A stretch of 64,000 bases of DNA from Pseudomonas denitrificans (nom. rej.) (GTDB taxonomy: Bacteria; Pseudomonadota; Gammaproteobacteria; Pseudomonadales; Pseudomonadaceae), in NCBI RefSeq assembly GCF_008807415.1, contig NZ_CP043626.1:2170001-2234000 (forward strand), written 5' to 3'. Position numbers and translations under genes: made by a program. Positions 1,202-64,000 of the stretch are shown in pieces. The notes beneath the pieces are model-generated. The model saw only the letters and a program-made list of their open reading frames with translations. It did no database searches and had not been told where the DNA came from. Every line of letters starts with the position of its first letter. Position 1 is the first letter of the stretch.

Positions 1202-3613
<2,412 letters not shown>

Positions 3614-3729
3614 AACGCTTCTATTCCTGCGCTATACGCGCGTCCGAGAGTCGTTGGGCCGCGAAACGGGCCTATTGTACGGCTTTGGCCGGCCGATGCC
3701 AGCGAACCCGGGTGTGCCTGACTGCGCTT

Positions 3730-4785
<1,056 letters not shown>

Positions 4786-6673: not shown

Positions 6674-8947
6674 TCAGGCCGGCTCTGCGGCGATCACTTC
6701 GAACTCGAAGGCCAGCTCGCCATCCTTCAGGTCCACATGGGCCACACCGCCGTGCTCGGCCAGCTCGCCGAACAGGATCTCCTCGGCCAGCGGCCGCTTG
6801 ATCTTGTCCTGGATCAGCCGCGCCATTGGGCGAGCGCCCATCTGCGGATCGTAGCCCTTGTCGGCCAGCCAGCCGCGCGCCGAATCGCTGACCTCGATCT
6901 GCACGTGCTTGTCCTCCAGCTGCGCCTGCAGCTCGGTGAGGAACTTGTCGACGATGCTCTTGATGGTCTCGTGACTCAGACGGCCGAACTGGATGATGGT
7001 GTCCAGGCGGTTGCGGAACTCCGGTGTGAAGCTCTTCTTGATCACTTCCATCGCGTCGGTGGAGTGGTCCTGCTGCGTGAAGCCGATGGAGGCCCGCGCC
7101 GCAGTTTCCGCACCAGCGTTGGTGGTCATGATCAGGATGACATTGCGGAAGTCCGCCTTGCGCCCGTTGTTGTCGGTCAGGGTGCCGTGGTCCATCACCT
7201 GCAGCAGCAGGTTGAAGACTTCCGGGTGCGCCTTCTCGATCTCATCCAGCAGCAGCACGCAGTGCGGCGTCTTGGTGATCGCTTCGGTAAGCAGGCCGCC
7301 CTGGTCGAAACCGACATAACCCGGAGGCGCGCCGATCAGACGGGACACGGTATGCCGCTCCATGTACTCGGACATGTCGAAGCGCACCAGCTCCACACCC
7401 AACGCTTTGGCCAGCTGACGAGCCACCTCGGTCTTGCCCACCCCGGTCGGACCGGAGAACAGGAAGGAGCCGACAGGCTTGTCAGGCGACTTGAGGCCGG
7501 CGCGTGACAGCTTGATGGCCGTGGACAGCGACTCGATGGCCGCAGCTTGACCAAACACGGTCAGCTTCAGATCACGCTCAAGGTTGCGCAGCAGCTCTTT
7601 ATCGGAGCTGGACACATGCTTGGGCGGAATCCGCGCGATCTTCGCGACGATGTCCTCGACCTGCGGCACCTCGATGCGCTTCACGCGCTTCTCTTCCGGC
7701 TGCAGGCGCTGGTAGGCACCGGCCTCGTCGATCACATCGATGGCCTTGTCCGGCATGTGCCGGTCATTGATGTAGCGGGCGGCCAACTCGGCGGCGGCAC
7801 GCAGCGCTTCATCGCTGTACTCGATGTGGTGGTGCTGCTCGAAGCGTGGCTTCAGGCCTTTCAGGATGCCGAAGGTGTCTTCGACGGACGGTTCGGTGAC
7901 GTCGACCTTCTGGAAGCGACGAGCCAGCGCGCGATCCTTCTCGAAGATGCCGCGGAATTCCTGGAAGGTGGTCGAACCAATGCAGCGGATCTCACCGGAC
8001 GACAGCAGCGGCTTCAGCAGGTTGGAAGCATCCATCACCCCGCCCGATGCCGCACCGGCACCGATGATGGTGTGGATTTCGTCGATGAACAGCACCGCAT
8101 GCGGGCGCTTGCGCAGCTCGTTGAGCAGCGCCTTGAAGCGCTTCTCGAAGTCGCCGCGGTACTTGGTGCCCGCCAGTAGCGCGCCCAGGTCCAGGGAGTA
8201 GACGACGCTGTCGGACAGCAGGTCCGGCACCTGGCCATCGACGATGCGCTTGGCCAGGCCTTCGGCGATGGCGGTCTTGCCAACGCCAGCCTCACCCACC
8301 AGCAGCGGGTTGTTCTTGCGGCGACGAGCGAGGATCTGCGCGACGCGCTCGACTTCCGACTCACGACCGACCAGCGGGTCAATGCGACCCTGGCGCGCCA
8401 AATCGTTCAGGTTGCTGGCATAGGCATCCAGCGGATGGCTGGAAGTGGAAGACTCACCGCCCTCCTCGTCCTGCATCTCCTGCTCGCTGTCCTGATGCTC
8501 GGCATGGCCCGGCACCTTGGAGATGCCATGGGCGATGTAGTTGACCACGTCGATCCGCGCGACGCTCTGCTGCTTGAGCAGGAACACCGCCTGGCTCTCC
8601 TGCTCGCTGAAGATGGCGACCAGTACGTTGGCGCCGGTGACTTCGCGCTTGCCGGAACTCTGCACGTGGAATACGGCACGCTGCAGGACGCGCTGGAAGC
8701 CCAGGGTCGGCTGGGTTTCGCGATCCTCATCGTGCTGGGGGATCAGCGGCGTGGTGGAATCGATGAACTCCTGCAGGTCTCGCCGCAGCTTGTCCAGATT
8801 CGCACCGCACGCCTTCAGAACCGTTGCGGCAGCCTCATTATCCAGAAGCGCCAACAGCAAGTGCTCAACGGTCATGAACTCATGCCGCTTCGCCCGCGCC
8901 TCCTTGAAGGCGAGATTGAGGGTGACTTCGAGCTCTCGATTCAACAT
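6674..8947 (-). CDS. clpA: ATP-dependent Clp protease ATP-binding subunit ClpA
   Basis: ClpA is the hexameric AAA+ unfoldase that feeds substrates to ClpP and receives N-degron substrates from ClpS. The 757-residue protein has an N-terminal Clp repeat domain (about 1-140), then a first ATPase with Walker A GEAGVGKT and Walker [10 protein letters not shown] second ATPase has Walker A GPTGVGKT and Walker [11 protein letters not shown], followed by the C-terminal small domain. clpS lies 28 bp upstream on the same strand, the usual clpS-clpA operon. Confidence 0.98.
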
Positions 8948-8975
8948 GACTTCACCTCGCTCCCAAACATCCGCA

Positions 8976-9338
8976 TCAACCTTCTATCTCAATTTCGCAC
9001 AACAGTGGATGTTGGCTCTCCCTCGCATATTGATTGACCTGCATGGCTTTGGTTTCCGCGACATCGCGGGTAAAGGTCCCGCAGTGCGCCTTGCCCTGGG
9101 TATGCACAGTCAACATGACCTTGGTTGCCTGCTCGCGGTTCATGTTGAAGTACAGCTCGAGCACCTCAACCACGAAATCCATCGGGGTGTAATCATCGTT
9201 GAACATGATGACCCGATACATGGACGGCGCCTTCAGGGCAGGTTTGGCGTCTTCAACCGCCAGCCCCGTCCCGTCGTCTTCCATTGGATCCGGGCGGTCC
9301 TGATTGAATGTTAGTCGAATCTGGCTACTTGCATGCAT
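8976..9338 (-). CDS. clpS: ATP-dependent Clp protease adaptor protein ClpS
   Basis: ClpS binds N-terminal Leu, Phe, Tyr or Trp and hands these proteins to ClpA. The 120-residue product has a flexible N-terminal tail and the conserved core with [18 protein letters not shown] (Asn-Asp degron pocket) and [20 protein letters not shown]. The frame opens at 9434, but the conserved ClpS start [11 protein letters not shown] begins at 9338, which is chosen. It is transcribed with clpA and divergently from cspD. Confidence 0.95.
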
Positions 9339-20707: not shown

Positions 20708-21216
20708 TCCTTCCGCAGGTGACCTGACAGTCCTCGTTAGACCTTCGTGTAGTAGTCCAAAAAAAACACTACAAAACGTTTGACGAACGCTCGTTTGAAA
20801 GTGCATGATGGCTTCGCTCCCGCTAACCAGAGGGTCTCAAAGCCCTCCGGACCGAGCCTGTGGCCCACCCGCCGCGCTGGTCCGTGTTGTTAAGCCCACA
20901 AGGCGGATCGACGAGGTTGCGACTGGCAAGAGGTTGTCCTGAGGGACGGGGAAGCAAGCCTTAGCAACAGTACGAAGTGACGGATTCAGCCGTCCACCAT
21001 CGCCCAACGGCTGCCACGAGCCGGCAAGCGATTCTGGATGTCACCGCTGCAGTCACCCGTCTGTACGCCGCTCTACCCCACTCCTCCAGCGTCATTCCTT
21101 CTTTCGGTCGCACCTTCGCCATCCCGCGGCGAGCAACCCGCAGTCAATTCCGTGTAGATACGGGTTTGAGTGGGTAAGTCGGTGCTCAACCACACACATA
21201 CTTTGAAGGATTGACC
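20708..21216. other. Long aceA upstream region
   Basis: 509 bases without a convincing gene. A possible promoter TTGACG (20780-20785) with CATGAT (20804-20809) and an inverted-repeat CGAAC-GCTC-GTTTG lie ~430 bp before aceA, implying a ~400-nt leader. A 45-codon ATG frame (20805-20942) has no good ribosome site. The last 40 bp contain the aceA Shine-Dalgarno sequence GAAGGA. Confidence 0.45.
20780..20809 (+). promoter_or_regulatory. Candidate distal aceA promoter with overlapping TetR-type operator
   Basis: TTGACG and CATGAT are 18 bp apart. The spacer carries CGAAC GCTC GTTTG (20785-20798), one mismatch from a CAAAC-N4-GTTTG palindrome of the type bound by TetR-family regulators such as PsrA. 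Assignment to any regulator is inference. Confidence 0.3.
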
Positions 21217-51078: not shown

Positions 51079-51156
51079 GTTTCCGGGACTTTCGCCTGAA
51101 AATGAGTCATAATGACCACGCAAACACCAGGTCAAAACGACTCCAAAGAGGTCAAT

Positions 51157-51161
<5 letters not shown>
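51079..51161. promoter_or_regulatory. Array of four NorR-type GT-N7-AC sites
   Basis: Sites at 51079-51089, 51106-51116 (GTCATAATGAC, perfect palindrome), 51131-51141 and 51151-51161 (GTCAATATGAC). They lie upstream of the fhp sigma-54 promoter; the last covers the fhpR start codon, suggesting autorepression. The first has a GC-rich centre and is the weakest. Confidence 0.6.
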
Positions 51162-52716
<1,555 letters not shown>

Positions 52717-63497: not shown

Positions 63498-63528
63498 TGC
63501 CTCAATAGAAGGCAAGGCGCATCGACTT

Positions 63529-63555
63529 GGTGCCGGCCATGGCCCGGCCGGCACC
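63529..63555. repeat. GC-rich hairpin after the MFS gene
   Basis: GGTGCCGGCC / GGCCGGCACC stem with a 7-nt loop and no T-run. It is probably part of MFS transcript ending or an upstream regulator site. Confidence 0.45.
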
Positions 63556-63562
63556 CACCCTG

Positions 63563-63606
63563 CACCGGGGATTTCCGCTAAGCGATTGAAATCCCCGGTG
63601 GTTTTT
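63563..63606 (+). terminator. Intrinsic terminator of the MFS gene
   Basis: The stem CACCGGGGATTTC / GAAATCCCCGGTG with loop CGCTAAGCGATT is followed by GTTTTTGG, 66 bp after the MFS stop. Confidence 0.85.
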
Positions 63607-63622: not shown

Positions 63623-63638
63623 TGGCATTTCAATTGCT
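63623..63638 (+). promoter_or_regulatory. Sigma-54 promoter before the guanidine riboswitch
   Basis: TGGCATTTCAATTGCT matches TGGCA-N6-TTGCW with GG and GC exactly 10 bases apart. Transcription would begin at about 63649 and cross the riboswitch. It suggests nitrogen control through an NtrC-type activator. Confidence 0.7.
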
Positions 63639-63726
63639 CTGTCCCCTGCAACGGGATGCATCACCCACGGCAAGGTAGCCACCGGGTGGGCGAACGCTGC
63701 AAGGCACACTGGAGTTGCACCACAGG

Positions 63727-63825
63727 CGAACTAGGGTTCCGGTCTTTCGCAAGAAAGGCGTCTGGTCCGAGAGTTTTCCGGCCCTAGGGACAGGGCTACA
63801 CGGCGGGAGAAAAGCCCGGGAGACG
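63727..63825 (+). ncRNA. Guanidine-I riboswitch (ykkC)
   Basis: The conserved ykkC blocks appear in order: CTAGGGTTCCG (63731-63741), CTGGTCCGAGAG (63762-63773), ACACGGCGGGA (about 63799-63809) and AAAAGCCCGGGAGAC (63810-63824), with variable stems between. Downstream is an ABC substrate-binding protein gene, a usual partner of the guanidine-sensing subtype. The ppGpp and PRPP variants of ykkC share much of the fold but control other pathways, so subtype I is favoured. Ligand binding would turn expression on. Confidence 0.9.
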
Positions 63826-63868
63826 TGATGTCATCCCGTGCCGATTTCCAACCGTTAGGAGCAATGCC

Positions 63869-64000
63869 ATGACCATGCCGCTTTCCCTGCGTTCCCTGCG
63901 CAAGACCCTGCTCGGTGCCTGTCTGCTTGCTGCCGCCGGGGTCGTGCCGCTGACGCTCCAGGCCGCCGAGAAGCTCAAGATCGGCACCGTCGTCTGGGCC
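63869..64000 (+). CDS. ABC transporter substrate-binding protein, 3' part missing
   Basis: The first 44 residues of an exported protein: MTMPLSLRSLRKTLLGACLL, AAAGVVPLTLQA, then AEKLKIGTVVWA at the window edge. The signal peptide and the K-I-G-T-V-V-W start are like NrtA/SsuA-type (nitrate, sulfonate, taurine) binding proteins. Behind a guanidine-I riboswitch this is probably the guanidine-uptake binding protein of an ABC system linked to urea carboxylase or guanidine hydrolase. AGGAG is eight bases upstream of the ATG. An ATG at 63864 stops at once. Confidence 0.82.
   Translation, partial: MTMPLSLRSLRKTLLGACLLAAAGVVPLTLQAAEKLKIGTVVWA

Follow-up and report, generated by a model that had tools for sequence, protein, structure and literature searches.

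What controls an operon whose guanidine-I riboswitch stands behind a promoter of the sigma54 type? The question is raised by the last few hundred nucleotides of a 64,000-nucleotide stretch of Pseudomonas denitrificans (nom. rej.) DNA (contig NZ_CP043626.1, positions 2,170,001 to 2,234,000; the whole stretch is called the window here, and positions refer to it). An earlier note on this DNA had proposed an AND gate, in which nitrogen limitation would start the transcript through RpoN and NtrC and guanidine would let it continue. After comparison with other loci, we consider it probable that this region controls a nitrogen-scavenging operon, and that in it a sigma54/NtrC gate and a guanidine-I gate act in series and share an RNA helix, P0, formed by the 5' end of the leader and the RNA behind the aptamer. 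The predicted features are collected in Table 1.

Table 1. Features predicted in the control region, in window coordinates.
Feature	Position	Strand	Basis
Weak NtrC-like dyad CGCATCGACTTGGTGCC, 105 bp 5' of the -24 element	63518..63534	+	10/14 consensus letters
Sigma54 -24/-12 promoter TGGCATTTCAATTGCT	63623..63638	+	Matrix score, pattern, conservation in relatives
P0 5' strand ACGGGATGCATCAC, +3 to +16 of the predicted transcript	63651..63664	+	Pairs with 63825-63839
Guanidine-I (ykkC subtype 1) riboswitch aptamer	63720..63824	+	RF00442, 78.6 bits, cut-off 63, E 2.5e-12
P0 3' strand GTGATGTCATCCCGT, directly 3' of the aptamer	63825..63839	+	Alignment A1, pairing energy, RNAalifold
CCCGTGCCGATTTCC, at the position of the terminator-like CCCGTGCCTTTTTTT of Halopseudomonas relatives but without the U-tract of the latter	63835..63849	+	Alignment A1
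Shine-Dalgarno sequence AGGAG	63857..63861	+	Sequence reading
Start of the NMT1-like ABC-transporter substrate-binding protein gene, operon gene 1; runs past the window end	63869..64000	+	

Both elements named in the earlier note are present. The match to RF00442 spans all positions of the model (1-107 of 107) and scores above the gathering cut-off, which bears out the claim of a complete ykkC riboswitch, and no other riboswitch family was listed over the aptamer region up to E 1. Judging from the family, the predicted aptamer would be expected to respond to guanidine. Upstream, TGGCA-N6-TTGCT places GG at 63624-63625 and GC at 63636-63637, that is, GG-N10-GC with the -24/-12 consensus at the canonical spacing, as had been described. 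When scored with a sigma54 weight matrix (approximate), TGGCATTTCAATTGCT ranks first among the 127,970 positions on both strands of the window. The T of TGGCA lies 97 nt before the aptamer model start, for which the previously given ~90 bp was a fair figure, and the predicted +1 is 63649, 71 nt 5' of the same point. Taken alone the short motif says little, because exact TGGCA-N6-TTGCW, found once in the window, is expected there 0.32 times and occurs at least once in 28 of 100 shuffles. Conservation at the same place in relatives, at 30/30 aptamers of the genus set and 42/43 operon relatives, carries the -24/-12 match far beyond chance. The combination of this match with the aptamer is real and conserved, and is most likely functional. 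Two hairpins can be recognized by eye at 63529-63605, in the interval from the upstream MFS gene to the promoter (GGTGCCGGCC/GGCCGGCACC, and CACCGGGGATTTC/GAAATCCCCGGTG with GTTTTTGGGG behind it); they could serve the operon as insulating terminators, and a simple scan gave no terminator there. Elsewhere in the window, 20826-21066 (+) matches RF02872, the family of the biofilm-regulating sRNA SrbA, with 149.1 bits.

The sets behind this statement were assembled in several ways. RF00442 was found in 18 of 25 genomes of the genus, with 30 aptamers, all of them preceded by a sigma54 site. The operon itself identified 49 loci in a species collection, from which L079-L081 (23-34 percent match) were dropped; the aptamer is present in 43 of the remaining 46 (L033-L078), and the exception among these 43, L054, has by eye a different sequence where the promoter would be. 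The inner letters of the promoter vary by group (GGCATTTCAATTGC, GGCACCGGACTTGC, GGCACGCAACCTGC, GGCACCAGAATTGC), and the -24/-12 core stays constant. Wider aptamer searches covered 248 family, 369 class and 398 phylum genomes, and the flanks were scored for part of the aptamer matches, namely the returned loci and 53 further stretches; a site was called at a score of at least 11.5 within the 160-200 nt upstream of the aptamer. By this measure, 185 of 203 Pseudomonadota guanidine-I loci, distinct by aptamer sequence, have a sigma54 site 31-113 nt before the aptamer core (162/172 in the first set and 23/31 in a further one), a fraction that is descriptive because the loci are related to one another. 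Among the 18 misses, L021 has a misplaced aptamer start and does carry the site, L144, L170 and L171 have degenerate TGGTCTG...TTGCT sites, and L248 lies just under the threshold. The eight of the 31 further loci under the threshold are mostly same-phylum loci from outside the class, and loci of this kind are probably alphaproteobacterial for the most part. All five aptamers on plasmid records, from B. pyrrocinia (2), Caballeronia, Pantoea ananatis and Rhizobium leguminosarum, have a sigma54 site as well (scores 11.8-18.8).

As background, about 1 percent of 100-nt windows score 12 or more, which is an overestimate as true sites are included. With the same scoring, a sigma54 site was found at none of 25 TPP riboswitches of the genus and at 5 of 30 guanidine-II riboswitches in the family, these five belonging to a single genus. 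The controls therefore indicate that, in this sample, the sigma54 site accompanies guanidine-I operons and not riboswitches generally. The five guanidine-II loci (L196, L199, L201, L202 and L203, genus g9) have a sigma54-like site (TGGCCCGC-N3-TTGCT) 75-79 nt upstream, and L200 and L208 of the same genus have no such site.

Promoter and aptamer look separable, since two operon relatives that gave no RF00442 match keep a sigma54 site (L069, 13.6; L075, 15.6); the third aptamer-less relative, L049, consists of the transporter gene only and has no good site (9.9). The L069 leader, from Tepidiphilus (L069:8468-8818), resembles by eye that of Stutzerimonas up to the expected aptamer start and is perhaps a natural riboswitch deletion. 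Two other arrangements were seen. Pairs of divergent guanidine-I aptamers, lying near one another on the two strands and each served by a separate sigma54-like site, occur on the B. pyrrocinia plasmid (L273) and at L126, L129, L134 and L263. At L252, L254, L257, L259, L260, L262, L265 (of the same phylum but another class) and L274 (Rhizobium), only about 25-27 nt separate the sigma54 site from the start of the aptamer model; transcription would thus begin at about the first aptamer base, with almost no leader.

The leader of the window locus begins with a sequence that can pair across the aptamer, a feature that the earlier note had not recognized. The two P0 strands form 14 bp with one bulge at -23.9 kcal/mol. 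In the window, 55 nt separate the 5' strand from the start of the aptamer model, and this distance differs at other loci. In alignment A1, which runs from the predicted start, ACGGGATG at the leader 5' end is invariant (23/23 sequences) and CATCCCGT just 3' of the aptamer varies little. Because the P0 letters hardly vary in the window-type group, the case for P0 rests on comparison between groups. Other loci have different letters with the same complementarity, as in the 15 consecutive pairs of L236, and a compensated change was found between L254 and L262. For a general test, the first 20 nt of each leader were paired with the post-aptamer segment of the same locus and with the segments of the other loci. 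This was done for 92 non-redundant loci out of 183 that were eligible, all Pseudomonadota. Matched combinations averaged -17.9 kcal/mol versus -13.6 for mismatched ones (z -14.6, 0/10,000 permutations); the signal lies in the means, with the matched partner first in 18 of 92 rows and at a median rank of 11. A 12-mer scan in 74 loci gave z of -10.1 at TSS+0 and -14.1 at TSS+5, and from TSS-40 to TSS-5 it gave +0.1 to -2.4 (-2.0 at TSS-5), a faint matched signal being left upstream. The partner is the stretch 14-30 nt beyond the aptamer end (z -13.2), and a weaker second leader contact appears at +25 to +30 (z -4.7 and -3.5). As the boundary of the pairing falls at the predicted start, the predicted +1 is supported independently of the promoter letters.

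The signal persists when only dissimilar leaders are compared: sets of 61, 42, 18 and 9 loci gave z of -13.5, -9.7, -7.5 and -3.3, with 0/5000 permutations for the 18 most different leaders, and in these sets the stretch from -21 to -2 of the start gave -0.6 to -1.1. P0-like pairing was also detected at 17 of the sigma54 misses (z -3.1, 16/5000); P0 is thus wider than sigma54 and not strictly tied to it. RNAalifold predicted 8 P0 pairs unaided on alignment A1 (23 sequences), and on the carboxylase-type group (42 sequences) it gave no P0 and preferred pairing of the aptamer 3' strand with the post-aptamer segment. Locus by locus, P0 was stronger than the latter pairing in 66 of 72 cases. P0 is part of the minimum free energy structure at 71/76 loci with the aptamer masked versus 22/76 unconstrained, which fits a P0 that forms with the ligand-bound aptamer. 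Swapping in the leader of another locus still gave P0 in 143 of 226 trials, so this masked-fold test is only mildly specific and the leaders are partly interchangeable.

A helix formed from both flanks of a ykkC aptamer has a precedent in the PRPP and ppGpp riboswitches (ykkC subtypes 2a and 2b), whose P0 is involved in the expression platform according to the relevant passages of PMC6031431; the same passages state that guanidine-I lacks the P0 of the PRPP riboswitch. The complementarity of the flanks in 92 loci, a predicted pairing, does not agree with that statement. Unlike in subtypes 2a and 2b, the 5' strand of the window P0 stands at the predicted transcript start, and the aptamer model and the downstream genes are of the guanidine type. 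The predicted P0 is a departure from the published description, not from the guanidine-I ligand class, and the complementarity at the leader 5' end is the new part of the findings.

How guanidine acts on this RNA has several candidate answers. Antitermination, the earlier note's reading of guanidine as letting the transcript continue, is unproven at the window locus; a termination mechanism is not evident there because there is no U-tract, and simple scans found no terminator with a U-tract between about 63400 and 64100. The riboswitch may act after transcription, on translation initiation or mRNA stability and perhaps through Rho, with P0 as a clamp on the 5' end rather than an antiterminator. 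This is a serious possibility, although we lean somewhat against it. It agrees with the missing U-tract or terminator at the window locus, with the count of loci that have one (at least 15 of 92), and with the geometry of P0, which would bury the RNA 5' end in a helix. Against it, a U-tract follows the same strand in close relatives (L067 and L078 in alignment A1), and the authors of the study on the Vreelandella boliviensis operon presume a terminator for guanidine-I in the passages concerned (PMC12508155). Nor was there any matched-over-mismatched signal between the leader or post-aptamer segment and the Shine-Dalgarno region; sequestration of that region, a candidate taken from the single-sequence fold of the window, was rejected on this ground. 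A general OFF hairpin of the aptamer 3' strand against the post-aptamer segment was likewise rejected, with no overall enrichment (mean z -0.15; below -1.5 in 8/76 loci); it fits a subset with clear terminators.

Another reading makes P0 itself the OFF structure, a long-range terminator stem beside a U-tract that guanidine binding would open. P0 does directly abut a U-tract in a few loci (L249, L250 and L237), and at L164, L237 and L117 a stable P0 (-20.4, -22.7 and -22.6) coexists with a terminator made from the aptamer 3' strand. The folding result points the other way, as P0 was favoured with the aptamer masked and much less often where the aptamer was free to misfold, and at L115, L124 and L140, which have terminators made from their own 3' strand, P0 is unspecific (row ranks 52, 56 and 57 of 92). 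We regard this reading as unlikely, and prefer a P0 that would form on the folded, guanidine-bound aptamer.

The activator of the sigma54 promoter is likely to be NtrC, as suggested by dyad enrichment over the whole set and by data from Burkholderia. With an approximate NtrC consensus (14 scored letters in a 17-mer), dyads of at least 11/14 were found upstream in 45 of 156 regions, which were not filtered for relatedness, versus 83 of 3000 random windows; this is an enrichment of about tenfold, and the dyads lie mostly 60-125 bp upstream. The dyad of the window itself reaches a level that is the best match in 366 of 3000 random 220-nt windows, and its letters recur in eight loci of the genus (L002, L023, L027-L032). 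In B. cenocepacia H111, the genes I35_7283-7286 ('urea carboxylase', transporter and associated genes) were lowered in an ntrC mutant by RNA-seq and were assigned to urea by the authors (PMC5491218, in the passages on this cluster). On the B. pyrrocinia plasmid, genes of the same types form a cluster with two guanidine-I aptamers in divergent orientation, whose sigma54 sites score 13.6 and 12.6. Of the earlier proposal that nitrogen limitation acts through RpoN and NtrC, the sigma54 start is upheld by the comparison, and the role of NtrC is likely on indirect grounds.

An enhancer-binding protein other than NtrC could take this place, in which case the first input would not be general nitrogen limitation. 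The genome offers 21 strong sigma54-activator domains (27 matches in total), one of the strong ones within the window at 51112-52716 (+), and the local NtrC-like dyad is weak. That activator was rejected as a candidate, being identified as the nitric-oxide regulator NorR by a curated model (762.3 bits vs 476), and no activator was found among nine operon frames scanned. Together with the enrichment of NtrC-like dyads and the lowered expression of the B. cenocepacia carboxylase-type cluster in the ntrC mutant, this leaves an activator other than NtrC improbable. A LysR protein has been proposed as the regulator of a guanidine-I/uca operon of Ectopseudomonas in part of a 2026 genome paper (PMC13296017).

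A coincidental -24/-12 match, with the operon driven from a sigma70 promoter at another place, is very improbable: the short exact pattern can arise by chance and a few guanidine-I loci (L138, L255, L258 and L268, among the misses) look sigma70-driven by eye, but the site persists in 42 of 43 relatives despite altered inner letters, simple scans found no sigma70-type promoter between about 63400 and 64100, and the RNA pairing boundary coincides with the sigma54 start.

The genes behind the control region give the gate its context. In P. nitroreducens (L033), the nearest named relative of the operon (97 percent over 270 aa of the substrate-binding protein), the gene order is substrate-binding protein, desaturase-like protein, two SDRs, EamA transporter, creatininase, biuretase-like cysteine hydrolase, a 260-aa protein that has no assigned function, permease and ATPase, and each gene is present in 41-46 of the 46 relatives. 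The P. nitroreducens creatininase scores 377.3 bits with TIGR04448, above the equivalog cut-off of 235, and residues 3-252 of the 254 of the creatininase of the window genome align to solved creatininases (2.5e-76). The cysteine hydrolase is nearest to biuret hydrolase at a score under the cut-off (248.1 vs 370). Among the nine operon frames scanned there was no carboxylase or DUF1989 protein, and on these frames the operon does not belong to the guanidine carboxylase operons. 'Guanidine uptake', as the earlier note had it, is too narrow: beside the importer there are the desaturase-like protein, the two SDRs, the EamA transporter, the creatininase and the biuretase-like hydrolase. The operon probably imports and degrades a guanidine-bearing compound, possibly a creatinine-like one, feeding the guanidine pathway; methylguanidine oxidation in the V. 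boliviensis guanidine-I operon, as described in passages of PMC12508155, is a published precedent.

At L003:2370-3381, 3427-4448 and 7609-8996, just beyond the window end, the substrate-binding and desaturase frames are broken in the assembly of the window genome, and no intact frame of the biuretase-like hydrolase was seen. The genes of relatives are intact, including a 335-aa substrate-binding protein in P. nitroreducens (L033:8809-9816). That a single operon has several breaks points to assembly indels or to recent decay.

The same genome holds a second guanidine-I operon (G000:C1:6803617-6803664 (-) and 6808149-6808247 (-), aptamers of both guanidine classes included; L001, L004, L207). 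Its guanidine-I aptamer, which also has a sigma54 site, TTGGCACGCCGCTCGCT, precedes genes for a substrate-binding protein and a permease, two DUF1989 genes and the gene for a carboxylase of 1365 aa; a guanidine-II aptamer of the same orientation follows after about 4.5 kb. Two guanidine-I aptamers, scoring 90.6-93.5 and 76.3-84.7 bits, are found in 12 of the 25 genus genomes; the higher-scoring kind occurs alone in 6, and 7 have none, including the one genome marked as the same species. Because its promoter letters place it there, the lower-scoring kind belongs with the window operon. It follows that, in this sample, the window-type aptamer occurs only together with the other kind.

The second operon resembles the guanidine carboxylase operon of V. 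boliviensis. The window operon shares with the latter the RF00442 aptamer, the downstream ABC importer genes and the presumed ON logic, and differs from it in showing no carboxylase and in the helix between leader and post-aptamer RNA found here; the natural promoter and nitrogen control are not discussed in the V. boliviensis passages (PMC12508155). The NtrC/sigma54 cluster of B. cenocepacia H111 is alike in the sigma54/NtrC control of guanidine carboxylase-type genes, and sigma54-dependent genes of COG3665 have been predicted in part of PMC12316311. The passages of both papers concern the carboxylase type, unlike the operon of the window. NtrC control of carboxylase genes is already in print (PMC5491218, same passages). 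A connection of promoter and riboswitch is found in neither text as searched: the word 'riboswitch' does not occur in that of PMC5491218 and stands only in a reference title in that of PMC12316311. Among the titles, abstract beginnings and passages covered, with subscription literature mostly outside, no paper was found that joins sigma54 to a guanidine riboswitch, and the literature search found none linking creatininase with guanidine and a riboswitch.

The model that we prefer can be put as follows. Sigma54 RNA polymerase would start at about 63649 once an enhancer-binding protein, most likely phosphorylated NtrC under nitrogen limitation, activates it, and the guanidine-I riboswitch in the 5' leader would permit expression in the presence of guanidine. 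Once the aptamer has folded with guanidine bound, the first ~15 nt of the transcript would pair with the RNA immediately 3' of it as P0, and P0 would keep the post-aptamer strand from OFF pairings; only RNA begun at the sigma54 start would carry the complete switch. The comparative sequence evidence strongly supports control by two inputs, with a guanidine RNA gate placed in series behind a sigma54 start. To this extent the AND gate of the earlier note stands, with the step controlled by guanidine unproven at the window locus.

As a more tentative and rather doubtful generalization, most Pseudomonadota guanidine-I leaders might be start-site-coupled riboswitches, in which the first ~15 nt fixed by sigma54 serve as a working strand of the switch. 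If so, RNA from upstream read-through or from other starts would have an incomplete switch, and a single RNA structure would join the two inputs, nitrogen and guanidine, instead of having them merely stacked. With P0 as part of the leader, constructs that begin close to the aptamer may miss part of the natural switch. The arrangement amounts to a two-input gate, recurring in nature, that combines an alternative sigma factor with an RNA aptamer. Guanidine-I riboswitches, on whose physiological purpose opinions have differed, are linked by it to promoters of the nitrogen-stress type across Pseudomonadota, and their operons seem to be built for nitrogen scavenging, with 25 of 30 guanidine-II loci having no sigma54 site.
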